Shown here one piece after another: positions 17,661 to 49,120 of a stretch of DNA of 64,000 nt. How positions within the stretch are numbered: the first letter of the stretch is position 1; each line of letters opens with the position of its first letter. The stretch is from Rhodamnia argentea (taxonomy: Eukaryota; Streptophyta; Magnoliopsida; Myrtales; Myrtaceae): contig NC_063151.1 of assembly GCF_020921035.1 (NCBI RefSeq), positions 25,922,934-25,986,933 of the forward strand. The letters are read 5' to 3'. Both the position numbers and the translations under genes were made by a program. The notes under the pieces were generated by a model. The model was given only the letters and a program-made list of their open reading frames with translations. It was not told the DNA's origin and did not search any database.

Positions 17661-18065
17661 TAACGACTTGGGAAAGGGGGTTAGGGTTTTCTTGCCTAAG
17701 TGTAACCTCTAATCCAAGTGTCGATATTTAGTCAAATTTTGAAAAGTGATTTCTAAATTTTTAAAGGTGAAATCGTTTTCCTAAATTTAAGCATAAGTCT
17801 TTCATTGATTAGTAAAATGCGTTTTTTTTTTTATAAATTTTTTCAAGTTCAATAATAGTGTTTAGGTTCTAAGATTTATTGCTAGGCATATTTAGAAAAG
17901 GCATAAGGATAGAAGAACTACCAAATTTTGTGTACAACGCTTATTTTGGTGTCAAAATTTTGTATTGACTTACTTAAGTGCCAAATCAAAGAAAAAATAA
18001 TCACTTAAATACCAACGGCGAAAGATTCCAATAAAGCGATTACATATCATTTATTATTAATTTTT

Positions 18066-19273
18066 GGGAAATTTTCAAAAAAGGGCTCGAAGTGGTCTCA
18101 TTTTCTCAAATAAGGGTCTAGAGTGAACATCGCTTCAAATAAGCGCATGAAGTGTACAAATCGTTTCAAATAAAGGCCTAGTTGAAGGACATTTTTTGTC
18201 TTTTAATCTTTTGGCCTTTTCTTTTCTATTTTTATTTTTTTCTCCTCCCTCCCCTCCTGTTCATCATCTCCTCCACCACATATTTTTCAACGGGTCCTCC
18301 ATCCCTCGCACGAACGGGAACTCCCGCTTGTTGTGCAAGACGTGCGTGATCGCCGCCGCCGCCACAAGATTACTCATCGGCAGCGCCCCTCCCACCGCCA
18401 CGGACCACGTCCGCCCGTCCACCGACCGCATCCGCACTTGCTCCGGGACGCCGGGCTCCGCCAACGTGGCTCGGCACACCTCCTAGAGCCGAAAGTCGAA
18501 CTCGTCCATCTCCAACGTGTTCGCGCGCGAGAACGGGAGTGATGCCGAGCTCGTCGGGTCGTAGCACGGCACCGGCACCGGCTTCGGTGTGTCCCTCGGC
18601 GTCGGCTCCCTCTCCGCCCTGTCGCTGAAGGACTCCCTCACGAGCCTCTCGAGCACGGCCATCGCCGTGACATGGAGCCGGCGGAGCCCCCTTGCGGGAG
18701 CCTCCGTAGGAACCCGCCCAAGCGGGAGACGAGCTGCGAGAGGTAGAACTTCGGGCCGTGGTCGGCGAGAAACTTCCACGTGTCGTCTTCCCGGAAAAAC
18801 GGGCGATTGTGGTCCTTTGTGGAGAAGAGCATAGCGGTAAAGATGCCGCCTTCGTCGGTGCCCGCGGCAACGTTGAAGTAATCGGGGATGCTGGCGTCCG
18901 GGTTGCTGGACTTTGACTTGAGGGCATGCCCTAGATAAGCGAGGGCTTTGCCAAGGAGGATGCCCCGCAAGCCGCCATAGTCGACCCAACCCTCTCTCTC
19001 TCTTTTCCCCGTTGAGTGCGTCGGTAGATGGAAGATGAAGACGACCATGCATTCAAGTCTGAAGAGATGATGAATAGGAGGGGAGGGGAAAGGAGGAGAA
19101 AAAAAGAAAAAGAAAAAAGAAAAGGCTAGAAGATTAAAAGAAAAAAATGTCCTTTAACTAGGCTCTCATTTGAAATGATTTGAACACTTCAAGTCTTTAT
19201 TTGAAACGATATTCATTCTAGACCTTTATTTGAGAAAACGAGGCCACTTCAAGTCCTTTTTTGAAATTTTCCC
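18066..19273. mobile_element. Pack-MULE with perfect 9-bp target duplication
   Basis: The element starts GGGAAATTTTCAAAAAAGG and ends with the inverse of GGGAAAATTTCAAAAAAGG. The inverted repeats run about 165 bp inward (left 18066-18230, right 19273-19110) with scattered mismatches. The flanks are identical 9-mers, TTAATTTTT at 18057-18065 and at 19274-19282, as expected for Mutator-superfamily insertion. No transposase is present. The interior is GC-rich and carries a patatin-like phospholipase fragment on the minus strand, so this is a gene-capturing non-autonomous MULE. A related single terminus occurs at 34616. Confidence 0.88.
18262..19020 (-). pseudogene. Captured patatin-like phospholipase fragment (pPLAIII type)
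   Basis: Minus-strand translation within the Pack-MULE gives GILLGKALAYLGHALK, then IPDYFNVAAGTDEGGIFTAM, then KDHNRPFFREDDTWKFLAD. In a second frame it gives TPRDTPKPVPVPCYDP, SRANTLEMDEFDFRL, EVCRA, then SVDGRTWSVAVGGALPMSN and ITHVLHNKREFPFVRG. These are ordered segments of the patatin domain, closest to the plant pPLAIII group (noncanonical GxGxG motif, acyl hydrolases). Coding capacity is lost. There is a frame change near 18680, and a TAG replaces the Trp before EVCRA at 18484. The GxGxG position reads GTDEG, and the Asp of the catalytic Asp-Gly-Gly dyad is missing in VAVGGA. The N-terminus is absent. It is intronless within the element. Confidence 0.82.
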
Positions 19274-20705
19274 TTAATTTTTTTAACATCACGTGACAAT
19301 TTTTTAATAAAAAAATTAGTTCACGTGCACTTTTAAACTTAAGAATAAGCATTTTTTTTTTTGAAAAAAAGTTAAAATAAACTGAAAAACTAAAAAAAAA
19401 AAAACAATGTAAAAAAAAGAGCTTTGGATTGGTTTGCAGGGGCGAGGTTTCTCTCTTGCTCCTTCGTCCACAACCAGCCAACCCCTCGCCATTGCGGCCG
19501 GCAATCGTCGCCGTCAGTCCAGGTTGCGTCTAGTCGCCACCTCCTCCGTCGGCTTTGCAACCGAGCTGTAAGCGACTTAGCCATGGACAAAAGCAGCAAT
19601 TGTTTTGGTCGATCTTCCGGTTATCTTTTGGGTATTTTTTTTTTTTTGTCAGTCTTTTAGGGTTTCTTTGATCGTGAAAGAGATTGACAAAGGGAGCAAT
19701 TTTTCTTTCTTTTTTATTTTTATTTTTTCTGGGTTGCTGCTTGGGGTTGGAGGGAAAGTGAAATTGCCTTAGACTTGTTAGGTTAGATGGAAGGTGAAAA
19801 GGAGACGCAAGAGGAAGGTGGATCCTGTAATGACCCACAAAGAAGAAATTACCTAACAATTTTTTGTGATAGCCTTCTTCTTCATCGGGTTTATTTCGCA
19901 AGACTACCCACAAACAGGGAGGTGGGTCACTGAATCTGTCGCTCTTGGCCATGGAGGAGCAATGCCGGAGGCACAACTCCATATCTCGCTTTCAACGAGC
20001 ACTACTCCAGAGCTAGAACTAGACGAGTGACGTCTGACGAGTGGCTTGGGCCAGCCACGAGCGACGCAGTAAGGGATGGCTCGGCTTCAACGCTAAGGAC
20101 GCGGCGCCGGCGTCTCCACCGGTAGCGACAGCAGGGATAACTCCAATGAAGTGTAGAAACTTCCAATCTTTCATGGCCAAACTCATAACTTTTGCTTTTT
20201 TTAAATTTAATTCCGTGTTAACAACACTTGTCAAGTTTTCAGTGGTTGGAAAAAAAAAAGATATATTTTTAACTTTTATCTTTTTTTATTATTGATTGGA
20301 TGCTCCTTCGAGCTATGTAGGATTAGCTTATTAATCAAAATGCTAGGTAAAAATTTTCGCATTATTCACGGGGATTTGGCACTCAAATAACCATTTTTCA
20401 AAAAAATTGGCACTTAAATTTTCCAATAAAAAATTTTGGCACCAAAATAAGCGCCATATGCAGAATGAAAGCAAAATCAAAACGCACGAGACACGATATA
20501 CGTGAAAAATTCAAAACGGGGAAAAGTCGTGGAGAGAGAGATGAGTTTCACTATCTTCAATAGCAAGCACAAAAGTACAATTCACGAATCTAAAGATCTA
20601 ACAAGAAGAAACCAAAAACAAAGAGAACGGGAAGAAGTGGAGGTAACCCTTACAATATGATATGCAACATATCTTTTTATAGCCCCCTTCAAAAAACCCT
20701 CAATG

Positions 20706-23879: not shown

Positions 23880-24748
23880 TCAATCTCCATTTGAATACAT
23901 ATGATATGAACATGTCAAATCCAAAATTTGTTCGTCGTCCGCACGATAATCCAAAGACAAAACAATAAGAACATTGTATGTATTAGCTGACTTGTTATTC
24001 TTCACCAAATTAGCCGAATTGGAATTCTCCATCAACTTTTTTCTTTTAGCATTGAGCAAAGGATACTCATTTTTATAGTACCAGAATTTGTGACAACAGT
24101 AACACTTCATTTTTCTCTTGTCCTGGCCTAACTTAGACTTTGAATGCCCTTTACCATTACTACGTCTATCCCGATGATTCGACATTTCCCTAACAACTAA
24201 GCCATCGATTTTATTTGCACTACCACTTGCATTCAACTTTGTACACATATCCGTGAAATGTAGCGAGGCCTTCACATCCTCAAGTATTATGGATTCCCTT
24301 CTATACAACACAAAATTCACAAAATTCTCATACGAGCTTGGTAGAGAGTATAACACAATTAGAGCTTGGTCTTCATCATCTAACTTCAAAACTATATTTT
24401 TCATATTCATTACGATCTTATTAAATTTATTTAGATGTTCTTGGATAGAAGCGCCGTCTTGCATATTTAGTGTGTAAAGACGTTACTTCAAGAATAATCT
24501 CATCTTAAGAAATTTCTTCATTTAGAGCCTCTCTAACTTTTACCACAATCCGGAAGCCATTTCTTTATCAGAAACTTCACGAAGCACCTTGTCATAAATG
24601 ATAATTGGATGGTGTTGTGCGCCCTCTCTTCCATCTCCAAGGCTCTATTTAAACCTTCCAAGCGCAACTGAGCCTTCATCTTGATCCTCCATAGCCCGAA
24701 ATTATTTTGACCATCGAAAGGTGCCACTTCGAACTCGATAGATGTCAT
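23880..24748 (-). pseudogene. copia gag remnant
   Basis: A likely ATG at 24748 begins MTSIEFEVAPFDGQNNF, then LWRIKMKAQL, the start of the copia-type gag (UBN2 family). After a frameshift near 24600, the second open piece reads MQDGASIQEHLNKFNKIV, then LDDEDQALIVLYSLPSSYE and KASLHFTDMC, typical of the capsid region. The zinc knuckle is damaged: CYCCHKFWYYKNEYP keeps the first two cysteines and a lysine-rich context, but the Gly-His and final Cys positions are altered. It is not functional. Confidence 0.8.
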
Positions 24749-26634: not shown

Positions 26635-27698
26635 GGGATAAATACACCGTGAGTGTCATAACTTGTGTACGACGTTCATTTGAGTGTCATAACTTTCATT
26701 TCGTTCACTTGAGTGCCACATCGGAGTAAAAAGTTTTTATTGAGTGCTAATTTCGACGAAAATCGTTTACTTGAATGTTACTTCCGACAAAACATCCTAC
26801 GTGAACTTTTTCATAATTATTTTAATTATTTTTTAATGACATGGATTTTTTTATAATATTTTTTGACTTTTTTTTTCTTATTTCTTTATTTATTTTGATT
26901 TTTTCATTTTTTTCATTTTTGTGCCATTTTTCCCTTTGGCCGGTGAGGGCCATCGGTGACCCTCGCCGGCCATGATTGGCCTGCCTAGGGGCGAGGGCCG
27001 ACGGGGCTGCGACGATCATTGCGACCTCGACGGCCGCGAGCGAGGGCGCAAAGGCCCTCACCAGATCTGTCGTGGCCGTGAGATCGTGACGGCCGTCGTG
27101 ACCCCTCGGCCAAGGGCCAACCGGCCCTCACTCTTGGGTCGCTCGCTCGTGGCCGGCGGGGGTCACGAGAGTCCTCGCCCAAATCTAGCAAAGGGTCTTC
27201 GCGCCCTCACACGCAACCGTGACGGTCATCAACCGGGGCCGTCGCGGCCTCACCGACCTAGGGTAAGCCGACCCTAGCCATTGGGTCACGCGGTGGTAGC
27301 CGACGATGGGGCCGGGGGCTGTGGTGGCTAGAGCGGTGGCAGATCCGGTAAAGTGCTCGTTCGGGGTAGCGGTCGCAGGAGGTGGAGGGGCAATGGGGAT
27401 GGGGGTTGTAGCGGCGGTGGAGCGATGGCGGGGACTCCATCGTTTAAGAAGGTGTAGCAAATCAAAGAGAGAGAGATTGCAAAATATATAAAAGATTATA
27501 CAAAAATTCACATGTACATAAAATATTCAAGAAAACTGTTTCACCCGTGCCATGTCATCTTTTCCGGCGTTCATGTAAGCGATGACACTTAAATGATTAA
27601 TTTTTAAAAATTATGGCACTCAAGTGAGCGAAAAGAAAGTTATGGTATTCAAGTGGACGTCATATATAAATTATGGCACTCACGCTGTACTTATTCCC
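26635..27698. mobile_element. Second Pack-MULE-like TIR element with perfect 9-bp target duplication
   Basis: The left end starts GGGATAAATACACCGTGAGTG and the right end is the inverse of GGGAATAAGTACAGCGTGAG. Inverted similarity continues inward through GTGTCATAACTT and CACTTGAGTGCCA for well over 100 bp. Flanking 9-mers are identical: AATTTCAAA at 26626-26634 and at 27699-27707. The interior (about 26930-27440) is strongly GC-rich, dominated by GCGAGGGCC- and CCTCGCC-type repeats. It shows no transposase and no protein I can name, so captured gene DNA is inferred from composition only. Confidence 0.82.
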
Positions 27699-28529: not shown

Positions 28530-29265
28530 GTATGTCTTCTTGCTCCTGTCGGCATAAGAATTGACTCGACTAACTTGGGGTTTTCTTGATTTCTTGAAAA
28601 AGCTGGCTTTTTGGAGATCTGTCGATCAGGCGTAGCTTTGTATGTTTCTTCATCTTTTGGGTTGGCAAATGCGGGACAAGAAATGGGTAATTTGAAAATC
28701 TCAAGTTCTGGAACCCAAGAACGAAGGGGAAGATCGTGGAGCTGAATTAGTTTCGAATTTCGCAGAGAATTCTTGATTTCTTCTCCCTCGTTCTCGTGGC
28801 AAGAGACATGTTTTGACTTTCATCTGAACTTTCTCTCTGTCATCGTCTCTTGCTCTTCCCCCAACTTGCAAGTCTGCAATCTCTGCAGGATGGGGAACTT
28901 TTTTAGTGTAGTTTTGATTTACTCAGCTGGGTTTTAAGTAGGAACGACAATGTGGGTCGAGAATAGCCAAGATTTTACTCTTTGCTTCGGTTTACGAGGT
29001 TGTGTAACATCACTTCCTTTTTTGTTTCCTTTGACTTCGTCCCGTGGTCGCGTTCTTCAATTTTCTGAACTGTAACCCAACTCTTGGCATTGTGCTGGCG
29101 AACTTAGGTTTCTTCAATTACGTTGTTATATTTGCTTTTCAAAGCACTTTAAAAGATTTTCCACAGAATCCATCCTCTATTCTTTTTCTTTATGATCTAA
29201 TTTTATATATCTCTGTTCATGGTCATGATTTTCTGTTCATGACGTGGATTTCTTTCCTTTTCTAG
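28530..29265 (+). other. 5' UTR intron of the cyclin gene (inferred)
   Basis: A CATTTG/GTATGTCT donor at 28530 and a TTTTCTAG acceptor ending at 29265 flank a pyrimidine/T-rich 736-bp stretch. The exon that follows begins 10 bases before the start codon at 29276. A leader intron is the simplest explanation for the lack of other start codons. Confidence 0.5.
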
Positions 29266-29275
29266 GCTCATAAAC

Positions 29276-31849
29276 ATGAAAAAGGAAACTCTAGGGACTA
29301 GTACCGTCGGAGCTGTTAATGGTCGAGTGACCCGTGCTCGAGGGGCTGCAATACATGCATCTGAGGAAATAATTGTTTCAGAATCATTTAGGCAGTCTAA
29401 ACAGCACGATCAGAATCATGCTTCACAGGAGAAGCCAAAGAGAGCAATTTCGGATGGAAACGGCAGTGCTGCTAAAAATGCATTTGCAAAGCGAAGTAAG
29501 CAGACAGCCCTTCAAGACGTAACAAATGTTTGCTGCAACAGCTTACATAAAGACTGCTTCAATGTGACGAAAATAGTGGTTAGTGTGCTATATTCATTCT
29601 GTTGGTGCAATGCATGTTTATCGCAGTATACTTTATTAGTCGAAACTCGAACGTATTTGGACGGAAATGAACTATGCATTTTGGAAAATATGTTTCATGA
29701 ACAAGTATTCAATGTAACATATTTAGCAGATACAAAAAGGCTGGAAACAAATAGAGTCAGGTCATGACGATCTCAAGCAACAATAGACGACATCTTTGAG
29801 TTAAGTATTCAATCCATCATTCTCATTCGCACTTTGGATATGCTAATTGTCAGGCTAGAAATGGGAAAAAGGCGGGGAATGCTCCAGTCAAGGTTTCCAA
29901 AGTGATTAAATCAGTTTCAGTGGAAGTCTTGAAGCCTCAGTCAGATTTAAGCGCAAAGACTATAACTGAAATGGTGGCCAAGGAACCGAGTTCAGCAACA
30001 GTTCTGCAGACAATCGAGCAGGAAGAAGATGCATCTTCATGGTCAAGCAGTGCTGGATGCACCATAACCAATTCTCAGCTTGAAAAAGATTTTTCTGGAA
30101 TGTCTTCACAAAATCAAGGTCCTTAAACAAAATTATAAACAAATACATACGAACTTGCCTACACAGAAGGGAAAGTTCATACAATTGAGAAGATGTGCTT
30201 CGACTTCTTGTAGCCTTCCCTAACTGAACATGTGATGCAAATGAGATACAATTTTCTCATCTTTCCAGGTTTGTATGGTGAAGTTTGCTCATACGTGCCA
30301 TTTTGTTTGGGTTTTGGTTACAGCAGAGAAAGAAAGCCTTCAAGAGATATCAACGATCTCAGAGAAACCACAAGTTACCAATATTGATTCTGATCAAAAG
30401 GATCCTCTGTTATGCAGCCTTTATGCCCCGGACATTTACAGCAATCTACGTGTTACAGAGGTTTGTGCAATAAACAGCATGTGCTATAGATACTTTGATC
30501 TCATATCAATTCAAACAACTAGTCATTTTTCGGCTTAATCTGAATTCTGAAGTACGCGAATCCTGTAGAGGCAGAAGTTTTCAAGAGATTAATATAGTAG
30601 CTGGATGGCAAATTCTCTGCCTGCAAAAAGCTTGAACCACGGGACTAATTTTTTAGCAAGATCAGATGAAAAACGTTCATGCAAAATGCTGGCTCCACTT
30701 AGAAGGAAAAGGCTTCATTTTAGTTTTATGCAACTTCTCCATGTTGGATTGCTCGGCTCTACTTGACGCTGCTTGCAGAAACCTCAATTGTGTCTTTATA
30801 AGTTTGAAGTTATAGCTATACCAAGATCTAGGAGATCAGTAGGTATCACTCTCTTCTCTAACATTGATAACTGCAATGCTAATTCATGCAATGAACTTAC
30901 CTATCAAGCTCCGCAAGGAATAACATATGATGAAGGGAGGGAGACATTCTCATTGTCGTTTTCTTGACCTTTCCCTCCAATATTGTGTTCCCAACCATGC
31001 AAAGGCCACAAGCACCAACCATGGACTCATTCCTCTTTTTTTTTTTTTGTCAGCTTCTCAGGAGACCTTGTTGTAATTTTATGGACACTGTCCAGAAAGA
31101 TATCACTCAGAGCATGAGGGGGATCTTGGTTGACTGGCTTGTGGAGGTCAGCATACCTCTGTGCTATTTTGTGTTCTCTATTTTCCTTTGCCAGTTCTGT
31201 AAGTTTGTTTCTGCCATAGCCAGAATTCTATTTCGCTATATATGCTTCACTAACCGCATATTGCATTGTGCATTTTCATATAATTGGAGAAAGGGTTTAA
31301 ATCATGTGCCTCCAATCCAGTGTTCATGCACACGTGAAACAAAAACCTTGTCCTGGATTCCTATTCTTTTACAGGAAAAGTCCCCGCTGATTTTTTCAAC
31401 CAACTTGTTTGCTCTCTGTTTTCAGGTATCTGAGGAATATAAGTTGTACCCAGATACTCTATATCTCGCCGTGTTTCTGATTGACCGCTTTCTATCTCAA
31501 AATTACATTGAAAGACGGAGACTTCAGCTACTTGGCATCACTTGCATGCTAATCGCGTCGTAAGACTGTTCCCATTACCTTTCAGTTTTGTTTTTGTTTG
31601 TCAGTTATTTCTGGAATGATATGTCTTGCATTGCACATCATATCGGTACAGCAAGTACTTGGCTGATCAAATATAGGAGCACATTTACTTCATCACCAAG
31701 AAGAAAGTAAACAATGGAGGACTAACTCTGAATAGTGGAGGCAAAGACATTAACCCTTTTTGGCTTCTAATGGAAGAAGTAATTTTATTCTCTCTTATCT
31801 GATGCTTGTTGGATGCATCAATATAAAATAGAGCAAAAGCTTTCCATAT

Positions 31850-34582: not shown

Positions 34583-34615
34583 TGTGTGTCCCTGTTCGTG
34601 TATTAATTGGAGGGA

Positions 34616-35215
34616 AAATTTCAAAAAATGCCCCAAGTGCCTTCATTTGTTTTTAAAAAAGTTCATAGTGAACCTTGTTTCGAATAAGGACCTAAAGTAC
34701 CTAATTATATTTCGATGAAGGGCTTGAGCTAGCGGGTCGGTCAAATGCTAGGTGGCTGGCGAGCATATGAATTTTCCGGTGGCCGAAATAAGGGCATTTT
34801 CGTCTCATATAATTTTGAATAAAAAGAAAATCCAAAAAATTATAAATCTCAATGGTTCTTTCTCTTCCCCACTTCGTGAACAAACGGACCTGAACAGAGC
34901 GAGAATCAGCGGGCACCGGCAGCGTGTGACTGAGCGATGGGGTGCGACCAGGTGGCGGCCGCGGTATGCGACCAGGAGGCATCGGCGTGCGAAGGATGAT
35001 GGATTTTGAACAAAAAACTTCCCCTCACGGCTCACACAAAGCCTGCCAAGTGTGAGGGCTTATGGAAGTGTTGCCCGAGCGAGGGCCGGCTGGCGCTGGC
35101 GATGGCGATGTGCGACCGGCGGTGGTGTGCGATCGGCGGCGGCGGCGTCGTACGATCTGGCGGCGGCAACGTGCAAAGGGTGAGGGATTTTGATCGAAAC
35201 CCAATTTTTCCTAAA
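34616..35215 (+). mobile_element. Single terminus of the GGGAAAATTTC MULE family plus GC-rich DNA
   Basis: The stretch GGGAAAATTTCAAAAAATG followed by CCCAAGTGCC, TTCATAGTGAACC, TTTCGAATAAGGACC and TGAAGGGCTTGAGC is a diverged version of the left terminus of the Pack-MULE at 18066. A GC-rich segment (34890-35190) with repeated GTGCGACC and GGCGGC units follows. No matching inverted end was found within 1.5 kb, so the element is truncated or its other end has decayed. Confidence 0.5.
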
Positions 35216-35492
35216 TTGGGAACTTCCGAAGAAGTCCATATCCGGGTCGGCTTCCTTTACAGTGTGTGCTCTCTGACATTTTTCGTCTCTGTGTTTCAGA
35301 AATTTCCCCTTTACTTCCTCGTAGCAGAGCTTGTGGGACTCAGCATATCCTTCACGGTTTCAAATAGAGCTCTATAGCTCCATCTGAGCTTTAGCATTCA
35401 GAAGCTGCTAATTCTGGCATTAGATATTGCTCAAGTGGACTGATGTTGCCATTCCAGCTCGTGACTCCTATTGAATTTTCATACTCCTTCAA

Positions 35493-35867
35493 TTAAGTGA
35501 TTAATAAAATGATGGCGATGAACCAAGTAATGGCAAAGCCCCCCATAAGTACAACTATCGCCCAGATAAAACTAAGGGGGCTTCCAAGCCAGTGGCGGCT
35601 TTTCCGCGAATCGCAAGGTGGAGAGGAAATAGAGTTAGCTTTTGCTCCGGGTGGGAACAACTGATAATGCAGCAGAAACTCTGTTTCTGCTGCTTCCATC
35701 TCTCCTACCGGCACTAGTTTGCGGCTCAAAGATTGTGGTGGGTGGAATGATGATTTCATTCTATTACGAAGCTCAGGAATATCCACATGAATGCTGCTTT
35801 GACCTTCAGAACTGTTCTTGTCCTTCATTGTTTCATTCTGGAGAAACCCAAAGAACAGTTTGGACAT
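35493..35867 (-). CDS. Small putative single-pass membrane protein (hypothetical)
   Basis: An open frame of 124 residues from ATG at 35867 has a soluble, Ser/Lys-rich first part (HVDIPELRNRMKSSFHPP, then FLLHYQLFPPGAKANS) and one strongly hydrophobic C-terminal segment (SFIWAIVVLMGGFAIT, then WFIAIILLIT). The result is a likely tail-anchored or single-pass membrane protein. I do not recognise the family. A TTTCAG acceptor-like site just upstream (near 35910) suggests a preceding non-coding exon. Composition is gene-like, but without a homologue the call rests on the open frame and the clean hydrophobic segment alone. Confidence 0.4.
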   Translation of the reverse strand: MSKLFFGFLQNETMKDKNSSEGQSSIHVDIPELRNRMKSSFHPPQSLSRKLVPVGEMEAAETEFLLHYQLFPPGAKANSISSPPCDSRKSRHWLGSPLSFIWAIVVLMGGFAITWFIAIILLIT

Positions 35868-35909
35868 CAAATCAGCTGAAGAAAACTTCTAGCTGGCGGT
35901 TCAATTGAA

Positions 35910-37560
35910 CCTGAAATCGATTCCCATAATTTCTATTATATGAAGACAATGTGCAAAAGAGAAGACAAATTGAGTCGATGTTGTCTCCGTCAGAGGAGTA
36001 CGTGCGTAAGGTTCTGATAGTGTAGTGAATGATCTGGCTCTGAATTATATGTTTCCATGCACGGCTCCTTGGAAGGCATCGACTTCGACATCAATGGTAG
36101 CAAGATTCCTGATGAAGTTGAACCTTTAGAGTTTTCTTTTTCTTCTGATTTCAATGTTATGTAATGCGCGGTTGTGGCATTTCTTTTGTACCTTGCTAAA
36201 GATATTTATCGAGGCTTTGTCTCAAGTTAGAGGTTGTGGCATTCTTTTGTGCCTTGCTGAACATGTTTCTTTTGCTTGTTGTGATTGCGAAACACAGTGC
36301 TTTTGTGTCCCTTTACTTCGATCCTCTTTTGGGATTGTTCCTTAGCAGATAGCAAGTTCCAACGTTTGAACTTAAGATTAGTGCAAGACTGACTTTTCTT
36401 TGTGATCTCATTGCTTTGCTAAGATAATAAAGCTTATAATCTTCTGAATCTAGTGATATATATTCCTCTAAACGTGCGGTTGCAAGCAAATGGACTACAA
36501 TACAAGCAAAATTGAATTTGCACCCACATCATAAAACAAAAGGTTTTAAAAGCTCTCGAGTAAGAATGCTGAATGAGAGGCCTCATGGGCATAATGCATT
36601 GTAGATATTGCTCTCGACTTTAATACTGGGCTGAGAGTGTTTTCATTCTCTTTTCACACGGCAGCACTCCATAAGTAGCAATAGCTTTTTCCTCACCAAA
36701 CTGCATTTATCGATTATGGTACAATCACTTTACAGTGCTATTGTGACAGAAGTTCAAAGCAGAAACAAGTTAACAACCCACAAGTCGCACTTGCAAGACG
36801 AGAAAGAGAAACAGAGAAGTGCAGAACAGAAGGGTACTCAAATGCAATATTATTCCTTTTGCAGGTTGGCTTTTTCTTTTGGCTGGGGACTTCTCTCAGC
36901 ATGCTCTTTTCGTTGAGCGAACATCAATGTACATTAACTCACGAACAAAAGGGCATAGAAAGAATGATGCTGACAAAAATTTAGAAAAGAAAATCAAGAT
37001 TCATAGAGAGAAAAAGTTCCCGATTGTCCCAAGCCAAAGTTGCAGACCATCATGTCTAAAAGAACAAATTGATAAAAGTGAAAAAAGAGCCTTCTTGCTC
37101 AATTCTGTATAAACAATTCCTCAAAGCCAAACTGACGAAACAGGCTTGGTATGACTTCATCTTAAGTCCTACTCGAGCGTTACCAAATTATCATAAATAG
37201 AACAAAAGCTTCGACAAGGAGGGATTCTATTTCATCTATTCTTTATGTCAGACTTGAGTCGAGATGCAGAAACAAAAAAAAAAGCCCATTTTCTTGTCAA
37301 TAACAGAATGTAGAAAGTAAACAGTATCGACATTGTTACACAACAAGCTGTCAAGTATCACACGCTAGAGAGCAGGGGTTCAACGGATGACAGAACTTCC
37401 CTCACTTGACAAACTCTGCAGACCACTCTAGCATATCCCAGTGGACCTCTTCGGCACACTTCACTGCTTCTCTTCATCAGTGACAACGTACCTAACGAGC
37501 ATTGCACGATATTACTAGCTTGTAAATCATATCAAAGGCATGAAAATAGATCTTAGAATC
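35910..37560. other. Intergenic, no gene seen
   Basis: AT-rich DNA with several short open frames that lack family resemblance. May include the promoter and 5' exon of the small membrane protein. Confidence 0.4.
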
Positions 37561-37561
37561 A

Positions 37562-37930
37562 TTCAGAACAAAGCTACTCACCTTCCTAACAAAAGTCAGA
37601 AGCTCCAATTGCAAATGCACCATTACCCTTCAAGCATGAAAAGACATGAAAATGTGCACATGAAGGTTCCTGCAGAAACTCTTAAGAGATTTTTGGTATC
37701 GAAAAGTGATCTTTTAAAGAATTGTTTAGAACAAAGCTGCTCACCTCCCCAACAAAAGTCAAAAGCTCTAATTGCAGATGCACCTTTACCCTTCAAACAT
37801 GAAAAGACATGAAAATACGCACAGGAAGGTTCCCGCAGCAACTGTAAGAGATTCTTGGCATTGAAAAGTGATCTTTTAAAGAATCGTTTAGAACAAAGCT
37901 ACTCACCTCCCCAACAAAAGCCAGAAGCCC
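37562..37930. repeat. Tandem repeat, period about 163 bp, just over two copies
   Basis: AGAACAAAGCTnCTCACC recurs at about 37565, 37728 and 37890. Each time it is followed by CCnAACAAAAGTCnnAAGC, and the first two copies continue through CATGAAAAGACATGAAAAT and GAAAAGTGATCTTTTAAAGA. Units are similar in sequence and not coding. Confidence 0.85.
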
Positions 37931-38349
37931 CAATATCACTCTAAGAGATGCACAGTGACCTTTCATAGCTTTAACTATTTGCTTTACATCCTCATATCCC
38001 TCATCATGCTAAAAAAGAGAAACAAGAGCCCATGCAGCCTTACTTGTTTGATGGACAAGAAAAACATGACAAACATCCCAAAAAGTTGTTGGTTCTTGCA
38101 AAACTTAAAAAGTTGCTCATCTTTGACCACTTTCATGTTTCGGTCTTCACATCCTCTTCTCTACCTATAGTAGAATTAAAAAAACAAATTATTAGTCAAA
38201 ACAAAGTCAACCACCAGAACACTTTAATGACAAAGTCAAGCATAGATGGATACTTGCATCTTCTCTCTTCCTAGAGATGACATTAAGCTCTCCATATTGC
38301 TAAAAAATGACGCAAGTAGTTCAGCTGTCTCAATTTGTGATGTTGGGGT

Positions 38350-40600
38350 TGATAGAGCGCTTTCTACCACATTTTGTGAGCATATGGTAGATGTAGATGT
38401 TGCCATTGTTGTTGTTGTTGTTGATGCAACTCATGGACTCTTGCAATAATGCCTGTTATGGCCTTACTTACCGCATCTCGCACAAGTGATTGTAGTATTT
38501 TCTCTCTTTAACTTGGATCCCACCGGCTCTTGCATAACTTTCTTCTTTCTCTTTTTTAAATTGTTATCACCTATTTCATTCACCGACTTTGTTCTTTGTT
38601 TCTTCTTTCTACGAACTTGCTTAGGCACATCTGGTGGAAGTAAATGCTCTATAGCAGGCCATGTGTCCTTGGAATCTACAACATGCACAACATGGCTGTA
38701 AGTCTGCATGAATGTTGCCAAACTGAAACATGTGTGAACCCATTTTTCAAGTTGTTCTTTTAGGTATACAAAAGTCGCCACAGCATGACAATAAGGGATT
38801 CCACTAATTCCCATCTTTTACAGCTACAAGTTTTGTGTCTTAAATTAACTACCCTCTTGTTCCATATGGTCCGCTCAATTCAAACTCATCCTCCCCATTC
38901 CATGTAGGAATCCACGACGCTGAATTTTTTTTTGTTTTTTGAAGATCTAATCTCTTGGATCTTAGGACAAATCACATTATTGTAGTTAGCCAATCCATCT
39001 CTTTGCTTATGAATCCTTTTCATGAGTTGCACTCTTATAGCTCAAGCAATGTGATGATAGGCTTGTCTCTAGCATCAATGATACTCTTGTTGAAGCTTTC
39101 GAACCAATTATTCAAGAAAGCATCGCATTTTGAGTTTATTCTAAAGTGGGACTTGCTCTATTGCACTGGAGGTCTTTGGGACAACCAATCATAAGCTTTT
39201 TGATTAATCGCCTTAAGCTCTTCCATGGCCAAGTCGAAATCACATACCCTAGTTGCCATGGCAGACTTCCAAACCGAAAGTTTAAGTTCCAATTCTTTGT
39301 GATGCAACCTAAAGTTCTCATAAAGATGTCTCAAGCAAAATCTATGTTCTACTTCAAGCATCAAATTTACTAGTGCTTGCACCAATCCCTTCTGCTAATC
39401 ACACAAGAAAGTCCAGTACAATTTGCAAGGTTTATGATCCCCAAATCTTTTGCGATCATACTAAGGAACAAATGCCATGTCTTGTATATTTCTTGTCCCA
39501 CGATTGCCCATACAAATGAATACATCTAATCATTTTCATCTAGGCCCACAGTTGCTAGAAGTATACCCTTGTAGCCTGATGACAAATAACAACCATCAAA
39601 CCCCACAAAGCGCTTACATCCTTCTACAAAACCCCTCCTCAATGCATCTAGACATATGTAGACTCCTTCAAACTTGAATTGGTCTTGACATTGCTCACTC
39701 TTGATTACACAAGTGGATCCTGTGATGGAATCAAGGAGTGCTTGGCAATAACTTCTAAGCATCCCAAATTGCTCCTCCTCATTCCTCGTGACCATACTCG
39801 GTGCTGTAACTCTAGCTCCGTAGACTATTGTCTTGCACAACTTCAAAACATTCTCGGACTCCATTGTTTTCTTCATTGCAACACATGGCCATGTTGGATT
39901 ATTCCTCAACCAATCACAATACTTGTTTGCCAGCCATTTAGAGCTTACTTGGGGGACACATAGAACTCAATTACATGTATGTATAGGTTTGACGGTTTTA
40001 ACTTGTAAAGTCTACTTCCTCAGCATTTTGACAGCATATATAAGCCAATCACAACCATCAGAACACACTACCCTCAACATGTTTGGTGCATTCTTAGTGA
40101 ACCTCACCTATCTCCCATTTTTAATGGTATAATTCCTAATTGCTTCTCTAAACTCCTTGACATTACTAAAGCACATCTCCAACTTAAAGGCACTATTCTC
40201 CATGTCCACCTTAGCATTAAACTCGAGATATGTATACTCAACTTGACTACCCATATTCGGGAAATCTACATTATCGGATAATGTATCTACATACAAGCCG
40301 ATGTCTCCGGCCTCTGTATCCCTCTGCATTGAACTACCTTCTATACATCGCACATTTCTTCCGTATAACTCATCAAGATCAATAATGGCAAATTCATCTT
40401 CAGCAACACCCCAAACACGCCCAGGCATGGCATAATTCACTTCTTCACATCCATCACCTGGTGCAAATGGAAGGAAAAAAATAAACGTCAAGCTGCAATT
40501 ACAATCCCCATCACAAGGGGAAAAAAATGTCAAGCTACAAGTTATACAATGAATCAGGCCTCCAAAGTGCAATTTTTGTCTTCCAAACACTTCATCTTAC
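38350..40600 (-). pseudogene. Decayed autonomous MULE transposase (MuDR type)
   Basis: Minus-strand pieces occur in transposase order. Near 40590-40110 is a MuDR N-terminal-like region ending LEMCFSNVKEFREAIRNYTI, followed after a stop by VVCSDGCDWLIYAVKM. Near 39890-39530 come TRNEEEQFGMLRSYCQALL and CKRFVGFDGCYLSSGYKG with LLATVGLDEN, which carries the first catalytic Asp of the MULE DDE/D domain. Next, in another frame, comes QALVNLMLEVEHRFCLRHLYENFR (39385-39160), then KCDAFLNNWFESFNKSI. Near 38810-38450 come GIPYCHAVAT (SWIM-type Cys-His) and TCARCGKCGHNRHYC (CCHC knuckle). There are several in-frame stops (for example at 40104-40106 and near 40020) and frame changes, so it encodes no active transposase. 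TIRs were not located. It lies directly upstream of the glycerate kinase gene. Confidence 0.85.
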
Positions 40601-41019
40601 CCTTATAATTTGCGAACAACGTCACGCGTGTAATCACCCAAAACAGTCTCGTAGTATGGCATTTTGGTTTATCTAAAAAATAATATATTAAAATTTGCAG
40701 ACCACGAACAAATAATTGAGAAATAGGGAGGAATACAAAAAATAAAATGAAAACAGTAAATAGTGAACCACAAACAAATATCTGTGTATGTTAACACCGT
40801 TGTTGATTGGACCAAAAAACGAAAAAAATTACAACGTTGTTGTCGATGCAACTGATGGATTCTTGCGTCACTCTTTCTCTCTACAGTAGTAAGAGGGAGA
40901 AAATAAAAACTGAAAAGAAAAAAGAAAAAAGACGGGTTGGAGTTGGCCACTCCATTTCCATCGCTTATCTCTCGAGTCTCGTTCTTCTCCTCCTTCGATC
41001 GAGAGAGAGAGAGAGAGAG
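40601..41019 (+). promoter_or_regulatory. Upstream region of the glycerate kinase gene
   Basis: The whole spacer between the dead MULE transposase and the kinase start is about 420 bp. A (GA)n tract (41001-41020) runs straight into the start codon, giving a GA-rich leader. No TATA box was assigned. Confidence 0.4.
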
Positions 41020-44000
41020 ATGGCGGTGCTGAGTGCACTCGCGCCACTGTCGACGACCTCTTCGCTTCCCATGAGTTGGCCTACTTACGGCGATGGTTCC
41101 AAGCACACCACGGTGGCCTCGTGCCACCATCTGATCGATCTCGCTCCCTCGACTCGTCTCTCCAAGCTCTCCCCCTCTCTCTGCACGCAATCAGGTGACT
41201 CCCAGGCTCCCTTTCAATTGCTCTCTCTCTCTCTCTCGCGCGCGCGCGCCCCAGCATTTTGATGAAGGAGCAACGCGCGGTGTACGGGGAACCCGTTGCG
41301 ATTTCTCATGGAGTCCCGCTTCTTCGATGCTCTGGCACTGCTGGGAATGATATCCGAGAATTCACATTGGCGATGTCGTGCAAGTTGTGATTTTTTGTCC
41401 GCTTTCGATAGCGACATTTGATGGGCTATTTTAGGATTCTGTTTAGTATTCCTTTGACGTAGTTCGAGTGCGGCCTGGATTTCCTTTCGTTTCCTTCCGC
41501 AAATAAGAAGCATGAGCTCTGCTCTTAAATGAGCTGGAGCGTCACTATTCACTTGATCTTTTTTATTTATTTTTTAACTTTTCGTATGGTTTGAGCTCTA
41601 GGGAATGTTGGTTATGTTGTTAGGAATAGAGATGAAACTGGAAGTCACCCCCTTGAGCCACTGATCGAATTTGATCGCTTATGTTGTCTATGCGCTGGTT
41701 TAATCCATTGCTTGACGCGATTCATATCTGCTGAGCAAGTCTATCATGAAATGAATCTCGAGCGGATCTGTCCACTCTTGGCTTGAACATGCCTGACGTG
41801 TTTCATTCCTTTCATTTGTTTAGGAACTCTTCCTGCTACAAATGGATGCCCGTGGATGCTGGGCTCTTCCATTTATCACCTAACTGGCGGCAGCAGATGG
41901 AGGCTGAAACCAGTTTACTCAATATTCCCTACCTCGCCAGCCCAAGTTTCCTCTGTACAGGACCTTTTCGATTTTATTTGCTCAGGTCCTCTCTTTGACA
42001 AGTTGGGTATGACCCCAGAAAAGGTGGCCGAGTCAGTTGATAAATGGTTGGCTTATGGCTTACACCTCTGTCGGTTGTTTCAACTCAATGAGCTCTACCT
42101 CACATTTCCCCAAAAGGCTAGGTTTTATCACTACTATATTCCCGTCTTCTTGTGGTGTGAAGATCAGATTTCTCAGCACTACTCCAAGTTCAAGGAGGGG
42201 GAAGATATCCCACCTCTTGTGGTAGGTACCATTTTGTTATATTACCCTAAAATTCCTCAAGGCAAGAACTTGAAGGAGGGAGGACATTGAGGAAATTTTT
42301 AGTTGCTGATTTTAATGCTTCATGGTGTTGATCCTGATTATAGCAATAGCGTCAAGAACAATGCTAATGTAGCTATCTCTGATTAATCTCTTTTTGACAA
42401 GCAATCGATGATTTAACTGCCTAAGAGGATTCATCTAGTTGACTAGGATTGATATAGTAATGGCTTTGTTTGTTGGTAGGTTCGTATGAGAAAATAACAA
42501 GATTTTATCCTCGCGCAGATTGGTTTTAGTGCTCCCCAAGGTTGTGGCAAGACAACACTAGTTTTTGCCCTTAACTATCTTTTCAAGGTCACTGGCAGGT
42601 GGGATAAATAGCTAGAAGCTTAATTTTGCTTAAATTTAACGTATAATGATTCTGATTAACTAATCTAATGTCAGGAAATGCGCAACGTTATCAATAGATG
42701 ATTTTTATTTGACGGCAGAGGATCAGGTACTACTATCTGAGTGCAGCATTGCCTCTTCTTTGATTGCTTGCCATTTTCATACTGATTCTGCTCAATATGC
42801 AGGCGAAACTGAGAGAAGAAAATCCAGGAAATGCACTTCTAGAGGTAATGATCACTTCTAAATCTAAATCTTAACTGGAGGAGTGGGGGTTGTTCCTGTC
42901 CCCTACTTGTGCCCTCATCCCCATTTTCATCTCTCTACTTTTGTACACAGTTGCGTGGAAATGCAGGAAGCCATGATCTTCAATTCTCAGTTGAAACACT
43001 CACTGTTGTGACCAATTTGACTAAAGAAGGTGGAATCTGTCACCTTAATTTCACCCTTGCACATCCTGCAAGTCCATCATTAATTCTCATTACCCCAATT
43101 TTTTAGGCATGAAGATGAAGCTACCTCGATATGACAAAGTGAGCTGGCAACTCAAAAACTTTTTATCTCAATGATTCCAAAAACTTGACCAATGCTGAGT
43201 TCTCCTCCCTTGCAGTCTGCTTACAATGGAAAGGGTGACAGAGCTGATCCATCAACTTGGCCAGAAGTGGAGGGGCCATTAACGGTAAGAAATTTCTAGA
43301 CAGAAAAGCAGCAATGTGGGGAGAGGATGAACTTGGACTTTTTGAAAACTCGATCGTGTACATTTCTGTTATAACCAGCAGAAGGGGCATGGACCAGAGA
43401 GATGTTACAGTCACAATGACTTGGTAGTATAAATACTGGCAACTATGAGGCAAGCAGAACTGATGGCGTTATTTAGTGGGTTATCCTCTCTCAGAAGATG
43501 TCTGAGGAAAGGTTGACTCAGCTGTGGGCATGGCTATGATCTTTTGTGGATTTGATCACCTCTTGCAGATTTGAATTTCGATTTTCTTGTATTCCATCCA
43601 TGATGTTATGACTTCTGCTCGTCCTCTAGGCTGTTTTGTTTGAAGGTTGGATGCTTGGATTCAAACCCTTGCCAGCAGATGTAGTCACAGCTGTCGATCC
43701 ACAGGTTGTGGCTCAAAGAATCTTGCAGATGTGTGGATGACTTTTTTCATCATGCTGTTGTATGATAACTGGGCTAATACCTTACTGCGTCTGTTATACA
43801 GCTAGAGACTGTAAACAAGAATCTTGAAGCTTATTATGATGCGTGGGACAAATTCGTCAAGGCATGGATAGTCATCAAGATTCAGGACCCTAGTTGTGTC
43901 TACCAATGGCGCTTGCAGGTTGGCAACTCATCTTCTCTATGACCACATTACGTCCTATGGAATTGTAGAATCCCATCTGCAAATTCACCGCAACTGCGAA

Positions 44001-47466: not shown

Positions 47467-48225
47467 CTATTCTACTTTGGATTTGTCCTGCTTCTGATAC
47501 TCTTCGGATTCTTTGGTCCATAAATCTCCAAACTCACAGTTCTTCCAAGCTTCAAACCACGGACCTCCAAGGGTGTAATGTATGGCTTTAGGGAACGTAC
47601 TGGGATCATTTTCGACTACCTTGTTATGCCCCACAAGGAAATTCCACACAAACGGTATCGAGCCAATCTCACTGTCATCAAGCCACTGAAACCTGTGCAA
47701 ATAAGCACCTGTCTGGGCATTCACCACCTCAGGTGTCAACACCTTGTTTTTGGGATGTCCACAATTATACAGTACCATTGAAGACCAGTTTTTCCTGGGA
47801 TACACCGTTTGCACGGCTCCATCCATCTTTGTGGTCTCTTTAGGCGTGTAATCATGTTGAACACACATTACTGCATATTTATCATCCGCCAGGCCCCTCA
47901 ATTCTTTGATGTCCCCTAAGTAGAGAAAATCACAGTCCACAAACATAGCCCAACCATCATAATTAGCCAGATGTGGAGTCAAGAACCGAGAAAATGAGAA
48001 CTCGGTGCTCTCGAGCTTCCCCCTCTCCCGCCAATACAAGCCATTCTTCCTCAATTCAGATTGCTTGATGGGGATAATGTCAACAGGAATGGATGATCTC
48101 TTCAGAATAGAGTAGCGGCAGACCTCATAAGCAAGGTCCTCGCGTGGATCGTACCCGATGAAGATCTTGAAGGGCTTCTCAAGTGAATTCTTCATAGTAG
48201 CGCCATTAACAGCACCATTCATCAT
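47467..48225 (-). CDS. CDI-like nucleotide-diphospho-sugar transferase family protein
   Basis: A single coding exon of 252 residues follows a leader intron (donor 48881, acceptor 48316). After splicing the first in-frame ATG is at 48225 (MMNGAVNGATMKNSLEKPF). The longer open frame reaching 48327 would use intron sequence and is rejected. The body reads FKIFIGYDPREDLAYEVC, then a glycosyltransferase-A-like core with FVDCDFLYLGDIKEL, where Asp-Cys-Asp is a DxD metal/nucleotide-sugar motif. It ends with a GGPWFEAWKNCEFGDLW block. It resembles the small plant family of Arabidopsis CDI (recalled as At1g64980), whose substrate I do not know. No signal peptide or membrane segment is present, so it is probably cytosolic. 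Glycosyl transfer is inferred from the fold only. Confidence 0.85.
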   Translation of the reverse strand: MMNGAVNGATMKNSLEKPFKIFIGYDPREDLAYEVCRYSILKRSSIPVDIIPIKQSELRKNGLYWRERGKLESTEFSFSRFLTPHLANYDGWAMFVDCDFLYLGDIKELRGLADDKYAVMCVQHDYTPKETTKMDGAVQTVYPRKNWSSMVLYNCGHPKNKVLTPEVVNAQTGAYLHRFQWLDDSEIGSIPFVWNFLVGHNKVVENDPSTFPKAIHYTLGGPWFEAWKNCEFGDLWTKESEEYQKQDKSKVE

Positions 48226-49120
48226 CTCGCTGGAGATTTCCTCAACTATCTCAAGCCTTTTGGAAGGGACAGGCAGTGCCACGAACAAAAACGAGATCCA
48301 GATGCGTAGACAATCCTGCATCAGCAAAGGAAACCGATGAACAAAAACGATAACGCTTTTATTTGCGGAACATTTGCTACAAGATCAGAGATCAGAAACC
48401 CAAAAAGAGCAAAACTAGAAAAAAGAATAGGCAATCCAAGAAAGATCTTCACTACCGAACAGATACATTAGTTCATACACTAGTTTCACCGAATAATGCT
48501 GCACATCCTGATTTTCATCAGCTGATTGCACATTTCGATATGCTTAATATCCCCTATGTTGAATCCCACGAATCCCACGAGCTTTCGGTCGATATCTAAA
48601 GAAAAACCGAATAGGCAATCCAGATTCTTCCCCAGAATCGGAATGGCCTCGGCCCGCAACACCCGATTGCAACCCAGAAACCTAAACGCGCACGCGACGC
48701 CCAAATGCATCTTCTTTTTTCCTTTTTTTTTTTTTCTCAGAAAGCACAGATTCGACTCGTAGCAGGAATCGGAAAAAAGAAGAAGCGAAATTCCGCGCAA
48801 GAACATCGAGCACGTCCTCCTGGCGCCGCTGCTCAGGCAAGTCTCAGGAATTTGCAGATCCGCGAAAGGAGAAGAATGTACCTGGAAAGCTACAGCGCCG
48901 TCGACGGAGCAGATCGAGAGCGAAACGGGCGGGAGTGCCTCTTCTTTCTTCTTTGCTTCTTCTTGCTTCCACCGCGATTCCTGGGGGAATTTATGAGGCG
49001 GAGACCAGGGGGGATGACGACCGTTGGTTCGAGCGTACGGCTCGAAGATGTTTGCGGGCTGAAATAGCACGGGGCCGAACAGTCGTCCGTGCCTCGCGGA
49101 AAAGTCAATTTTGGACATGC
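48226..49120 (-). promoter_or_regulatory. 5' leader, leader intron and promoter of the CDI-like gene
   Basis: The donor CCAG/GTACATTC (48882/48881) and acceptor TGATGCAG (48316) define a leader intron of about 566 bp. The leader exon (about 48883 up to ~49000) has no ATG, which supports the start at 48225. Open frames on either strand here are chance. Confidence 0.55.

Follow-up and report, generated by a model that had tools for sequence, protein, structure and literature searches.

Results

Architecture of the element

The window analysed here is a 64,000-nucleotide stretch of the Rhodamnia argentea genome (contig NC_063151.1, positions 25,922,934 to 25,986,933 of the forward strand). At positions 18066-19273 of the window there is a Mutator-like element (MULE) of 1208 bp, which is bounded by terminal inverted repeats (TIRs) and a target-site duplication (TSD) and encloses a broken fragment of a patatin-like gene of the pPLAIII type. 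The element is almost certainly the short form of a non-autonomous Pack-MULE family that captured part of one pPLAIII exon and was amplified as passenger DNA. The likely source of the captured exon, to judge from sequence similarity, is a gene on C5, which is referred to below as the donor. The element has the following features.

18057..18065, no strand: left TSD, TTAATTTTT, read directly from the sequence
18066..18273, plus strand: left TIR, 208 nt, first bases GGGAAATTTTCAAAAAAGG, with internal subrepeats of ~30 bp, from the gapped alignment of the ends
18293..18985, minus strand: captured coding fragment of pPLAIII exon 1, donor codons ~79-309, matching the C5 donor exon at 86.6% identity across 694 bp
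18384..18392, minus strand: Gly-Gly-Ala where patatins have the DGG/DGA motif, Gly-Gly-Gly in the donor; coordinates counted from the frames
18483..18485, minus strand: in-frame TAG in place of the donor Trp codon of FRLWEVC, from comparison with the donor
18667..18669 (approximate), minus strand: 1-bp frameshift at donor offset 793, common to 10/10 aligned short copies
18845..18862, minus strand: GTDEGG for donor GTGVGG, an altered GxGxG esterase box; coordinates counted from the frame
18986..18999, no strand: junction left by loss of ~400 bp from the interior (donor ~1098-1500), which distinguishes short from long copies, from the donor alignment
19000..19073, minus strand: captured remnant of the region that precedes the ATG in the donor (1025-1097), 81% identical over 74 bp
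19061..19273, minus strand: right TIR, 213 nt, the inverted counterpart of the left TIR, from the gapped alignment of the ends
19274..19282, no strand: right TSD, TTAATTTTT, read directly and identical to the left at 9/9 positions

A sequence-only reading of the window had described an exact 9-bp duplication at both ends of a 1208-bp element, and this was confirmed; within the window, identical 9-mers at this spacing (±50) occur at a rate of 1.6e-5 per site pair. The same reading had given the inverted repeats as ~165 bp, which was too short, since in a gapped alignment of both ends the arms extended over 208 and 213 nt, in which 181 positions were identical, 26 were mismatched and 7 were gaps. 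Most of the 1208 bp was explained by the TIRs and donor sequence. No transposase was recognised in the element, the five broken minus-strand frame pieces of its cargo giving no Pfam hit at E ≤ 1. A tRNA scan and an Rfam scan at the gathering threshold also gave no hits.

By every criterion that could be tested, the window element is a Pack-MULE. It has long TIRs and a TSD (9/9) within the 9-11-bp range, it carries a gene fragment for which a parental type of exon, without TIRs, is present on C5, it is non-autonomous, and a single target was found at all three of the paralogous unoccupied sites that were read.

The captured fragment and its likely donor

The host assembly (346.7 Mb, 74 contigs) was searched with the interior of the element (18300-19020), as the sequence-only reading had proposed. 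At E ≤ 0.001, 34 stretches matched, with each of the 30 first-look candidates scored; for repeats these numbers are minimum counts. When joined, the stretches represented 29 places, namely 25 element loci, the donor, two paralogs and one fragment without TIRs. The donor candidate (L003, C5:3931563-3935246) contains a minus-strand open frame that runs from the ATG through 374 residues and is known here from its first exon alone; the locus is without TIRs. The exon matched the Patatin profile PF01734 over 191/191 positions (E 1.5e-16), and it carries GTGVGG (GxGxG) and VGGG. The published account of pPLAIII proteins, in its available part, gives G in place of the DGG Asp, and GGG, SGG, TGG or DGG for the rice proteins (PMC4623698); the C5 exon resembles them as described there, with GxGxG for GxSxG and GGG for DGG. 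The pPLAIII label is given here on the basis of these motifs and the patatin domain.

Three further stop-free exons outside elements showed only 65, 58 and 50% protein identity to the donor, and the C5 gene is therefore the closest non-element relative. Other patatin stretches in the genome were 39-49% identical to it at the protein level. A donor-like patatin fragment that extends past the capture edge, again without TIRs, was observed at 2003-2569 of L042 (C11:19568504-19572827). This locus was considered as an alternative donor and rejected: its alignment to a long copy covers 130 bp at 80%, whereas that to the C5 gene covers 573 bp at 83%. It is apparently a separate partial duplicate of that gene.

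The patatin identity of the interior, which had been proposed from the sequence alone, was borne out at the DNA level by the donor alignment and at the protein level by a PDB search, in which the minus-strand frame at 18638-19153 matched Patatin-17 (1oxw) over 81 residues with an E value of 7e-14. Two downstream frame pieces gave chance matches only in the PDB search; their patatin origin follows from the DNA alignment to the donor exon. Comparison with the donor also upheld the reported change of frame (the 1-bp deletion), the gained stop (TAG) and the alteration of the GxGxG motif. The reported loss of the catalytic Asp was not upheld. The donor itself reads VGGG at that position, and VDGA is found in the C8 paralog, so absence of the Asp was rejected as a sign of decay. 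With a frameshift, a TAG and no N-terminal codons, the reading frame of the window copy is not intact and does not specify a functional pPLAIII enzyme; unlike the enzymes described in the available part of PMC4623698, the copy retains codons ~79-309 only, and these are broken.

The TAG was absent from L002, the nearest sister of the window copy, and was found also in L009 and L043. Its absence from L002 is most simply explained if it arose after the window copy and L002 separated, and it therefore seems to be both later and recurrent. The GxGxG motif was kept in 12 of the 20 copies that could be read at the esterase box.

Copies across the genome

A protein search recovered a 26th element locus (L046) that the DNA search had missed. 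The 26 loci are the window copy, L002, L004-L021, L043-L047 and L052. Both TIRs were present in at least 24 copies (for L014, via L056), so the sister copies that the sequence-only reading had suggested seeking do exist; L047 and L052 each have one partial TIR. When the TSD match was taken as the best of end shifts of up to 4, 6 or 3 bp, depending on the copy set, the duplication was 9/9 in 18/24 copies and 8/9 in the remaining six (L005, L008, L021, L043, L044 and L045). Among 200,000 random, unshifted flank pairs, 9/9 matches occurred at a rate of 1e-5 and matches of at least 8/9 at 2.6e-4.

The clean duplication at the window site had been taken to suggest a comparatively recent insertion. 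This was not supported, because with 18 of the 24 copies keeping 9/9 a clean TSD cannot date an insertion. The arms of MULE TIRs may already differ at the time of insertion, and dating by TIR divergence was rejected along with dating by TSD.

The middle of L046 no longer matches the donor. Near 1522-1653 of this locus, two same-strand hits to the TIR pattern lie 103 bp apart (C7:26789835 and 26789938), and this end of the copy may carry a tandem TIR.

Capture edges, size classes and decay

All eight of the aligned long copies (L011, L013 and L015-L020) were colinear with the donor from position 1025 through 2190-2196, at 83-86% identity. The captured segment, of ~1.17 kb, comprises 242 bp before the ATG (donor 1267) and codons 1-309. 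Short copies keep donor 1025-1097 (1025-1065 in L010) and ~1501-1517 to 2191-2196; the ~400 bp between these blocks is gone from all of them, including the window copy, which is therefore a derivative by internal deletion. L021 is of the short type and is split by an insert, and L043, L044 and L046 have lost other parts. The inner TIR edge TTCATCATCTYC is common to the patatin elements and to three of four classes of element with other cargo, and the upstream edge of the captured segment in the donor carries the similar TTCATCTC. This likeness suggests, without proving, microhomology at the capture junction.

In a tree of 20 copies rooted on the C8 paralog, from which L021, L043, L045 and L046 were omitted as nested or heavily altered, the copies were separated from the donor (SH-aLRT 94.7 / UFBoot 98). 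The separation of copies from the donor and the C8 paralog was also obtained, with support of 0.958, in a FastTree analysis of 23 copies to which L043, L045 and L046 had been added. In the 20-copy tree the short subfamily comprised 10 copies (99.9/100) and the long clade, distinct from it, eight (100/100), and the window copy paired with L002 on C11 (100/100). Seven of the eight long-clade copies were 91-94% identical to one another over the common block, and L014 was 97% identical to L011. On the simplest reading, the common capture edges and the tree reflect a single capture that was then amplified, the long clade being the youngest burst.

A coding gap of 188 bp, next to which a further gap was aligned on its own, and the 1-bp deletion at donor offset 793 are present in all 10 aligned short copies. 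Decay thus preceded the insertion in the window, in agreement with the sequence-only reading, which held that the gene fragment was already degraded when it arrived. Differences among copies were flat across the three codon positions, at 0.068, 0.056 and 0.061 for eight long copies and 0.143, 0.161 and 0.139 for 10 short copies; between the donor and 23 copies, the poorly aligned L045 and L046 included, they were 0.126, 0.132 and 0.175. At least two gaps of a length not divisible by 3, relative to the donor, were present in 23/23 copies. The open C8 paralog has four such gaps in the same alignment, so that gap counts overstate frameshifts and are weak evidence alone; indels common to close copies are for this reason the better evidence of decay. 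No stop was found in the aligned donor frame in 6/23 copies. Overall, these sequence comparisons gave no sign of selection on a protein encoded by the copies.

The insertion site

The element is nested within an older repeat, the arms of which are as follows.

17925..18061, plus strand: left arm of the older TIR-like repeat; aligned to the right arm with 94 identities, 39 mismatches and 8 gap positions
20330..20466, minus strand: right arm of the older TIR-like repeat, from its alignment to the left arm

The pair (17925-20466) belongs to an abundant genomic repeat family. An empty-site query was made by joining both flanks with one copy of the target, and 40 of 566 first-look candidates were scored. 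In 37 of the 39 non-self rows the match crossed the junction in one stretch, at 70-78% identity. At all three sites that were read (L074 on C7, L075 on C11 and L076 on C10), the sequence ran on across the junction with one TTAA-T-rich target and without an element. The targets each differed from TTAATTTTT by a one-base gap, and L075 and L076 also by one substitution; these sites are paralogous repeats, not allelic or orthologous sites.

The wider TIR family and other features of the window

A TIR pattern of 29 bases, in which at most two mismatches were allowed, gave 375 hits in the host genome and none in the control. The 19 fetched elements that combine TIRs of this kind with different cargo (L053-L055 and L058-L073), chosen by their TIRs, fell into four clusters of 7, 5, 4 and 3. 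Their TSDs were 9/9 in 3/3 elements of one set; in a second set, read with unshifted ends, 10/16 were 9/9, one was 8/9 and five were lower (0-5). One cargo class gave a polygalacturonase-type match (3jur, E 2.6e-5) and no Pfam hit. Another matched LysM receptor kinases (E 2.3e-6), with Pfam LysM1 at E 0.0045, under the cut-off, and a third matched a HIRAN domain at E 1e-4, also under the cut-off. For the class formed by L061, L066, L067, L068 and L070, no Pfam hit was obtained in the one frame scanned. The polygalacturonase-like, LysM and HIRAN cargo appears to include the gene start, with a Met upstream of the domain.

A 6.7-kb element at 2215-8917 of L057 (C3:8701500-8711400) carries MULE, DBD_Tnp_Mut and SWIM domains, which lie in two stretches of one frame with a stop between them. 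Its TSD, TTAATTAAT, is 9/9 and of low complexity, and its TIRs are related to those of the patatin elements (79-81% over ~111 outer bases). A relative of this element is present in the window.

34612..40866, minus strand: remains of a MULE of the transposase-encoding kind, with a related TIR; 83% identical over 3075 bp to the L057 element, TIR end 70% over 247 bp

The right TIR of the remnant matched the patatin-element TIR with 3 mismatches in 21, and its transposase frame (40108-40596) gave DBD_Tnp_Mut at E 0.0009, below the curated cut-off. The remnant has no counterpart to the initial ~950 bp of that element in L057.

A second Mutator-like element, of 1064 bp, was observed at 26635-27698 of the window. 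Its TIRs start GGGATAAATAC / GGGAATAAGTAC, its TSD AATTTCAAA is exact over 9 bp, and its interior is GC-rich (68%). Among the long frames of the window, 23880-24482 (minus strand) resembles a copia-type gag, 29243-31563 (plus strand) a cyclin, 41787-42290 (plus strand) a MOB kinase activator and 47467-48384 (minus strand) a glycosyltransferase.

Discussion

The history of the family may be reconstructed as follows. An ancestral TIR element would have taken up ~1.17 kb from the start of a pPLAIII gene in one event, and the family would then have multiplied as non-coding passenger DNA, mobilised in trans by a MuDR-type MULE transposase. An internal deletion of ~400 bp would have founded the short subfamily, one copy of which presumably inserted into the older repeat in the window. 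Several points weigh against this account. The mobilising transposase is a guess from the TIR similarity to L057, in which the transposase frame is interrupted by a stop. The C5 gene might not be the donor itself but a sister of it. Ends had to be shifted by 1-2 bp for the TSDs of four of the 24 copies (L002, L020, L043 and L045), and two copies with 8/9 TSDs (L005 and L008) have flanks that are nearly all A; for such copies the chance rates given above are therefore too low.

The clean TSD at the window site would also be expected of a recent, single-copy Pack-MULE with a private gene capture, the picture implicit in the sequence-only reading. This is very improbable, as it is refuted by the 24 copies with both TIRs, by the identical capture edges of the long copies, which were the same in 8/8 of those aligned, and by the deletion and frameshift that 10 short copies have in common. 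Least probable of all is a processed pseudogene or tandem patatin duplicate that came by chance to lie between inverted repeats. The donor-like fragment without TIRs on C11 (L042) is in keeping with such an origin, which is nevertheless refuted by TIR bounds at 24 places; moreover, exon 1 and the sequence upstream of the ATG are colinear in 8/8 aligned long copies, and paralogous flanks have single targets. The idea that some copies still encode a selected protein is also very improbable. ATG frames of 200-258 aa are present in L009, L010, L013, L021 and L044, six copies are without a stop in the aligned donor frame, and the four gaps of the open C8 paralog show that gap counts exaggerate frameshifting. 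Third positions, however, do not evolve faster among the copies, single-base and 4-base indels occur at fixed places in close copies, and every one of the 23 copies has out-of-frame gaps relative to the donor.

A functional role for the family is unlikely, yet less so than the alternatives above. Under this explanation, the dispersed copies would give rise to antisense or small RNAs that control the pPLAIII donor, and their retention would be partly explained by it. All 24 copies contain perfect 21-mers of the donor locus (4-140 each, 17 in the window copy), and 369 distinct donor 21-mers, covering 752 donor bases, are represented in total. Such matches are, however, expected of any copies that are ~85% identical, and the copies diverge without codon constraint; a slight potential for trans-silencing may be granted to them in the weak sense of these common 21-mers. 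A broader version, slightly less probable again, is that one TIR family repeatedly captures and amplifies the 5' ends of genes (pPLAIII, polygalacturonase-like, HIRAN-domain and LysM-receptor-like) and that the patatin copies jointly supply small or antisense RNA that tunes a single close pPLAIII donor. Amplification of a single pPLAIII capture as passenger DNA accounts best for the family.

That amplification would have a clear precedent in the PM-ZIBP family of tomato, as far as it is described in the available part of PMC3310237. There, as here, one host-gene fragment was amplified; the 14 PM-ZIBP copies have AT-rich TSDs of 9-10 bp, according to the table rows, and group with a putative parental gene. 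The patatin family differs in its cargo, in its 24 copies and in its two main size classes. Tandem TIRs were reported at both ends of 13/14 PM-ZIBP copies; here a possible tandem TIR, at one end, was noted in L046 alone, without a systematic look. According to the same part of that source, Pack-MULEs of rice, maize and Arabidopsis have long TIRs, a 9-11-bp TSD and a gene fragment, as the window element does, and those of rice and maize prefer GC-rich sequence, a preference that the captured segment, with 64% GC in the donor, matches. The 24 copies exceed the 1-14 (mean 3) given there for non-autonomous single-TIR SLMULE46 elements of tomato and fall short of the 29 copies of a tandem-TIR family in that source. 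Among the papers listed by full-text literature searches, which left most subscription journals outside their reach, no earlier description of a patatin Pack-MULE was seen, and such searches for Pack-MULE together with patatin or with Myrtaceae returned nothing.

The patatin Pack-MULE family is a well documented but ordinary case of a known process, gene-fragment capture. Its value is that one genome shows, for a MULE capture, the likely donor and the edges of the captured segment, together with unoccupied sites, the size classes and a relative that bears a transposase. The case also teaches that a degraded catalytic motif needs to be judged against the donor, and that a clean TSD alone gives no date for an insertion. 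Should the copies prove to be a source of small RNAs directed at the donor, the family would be a test case for trans-regulation by Pack-MULEs.

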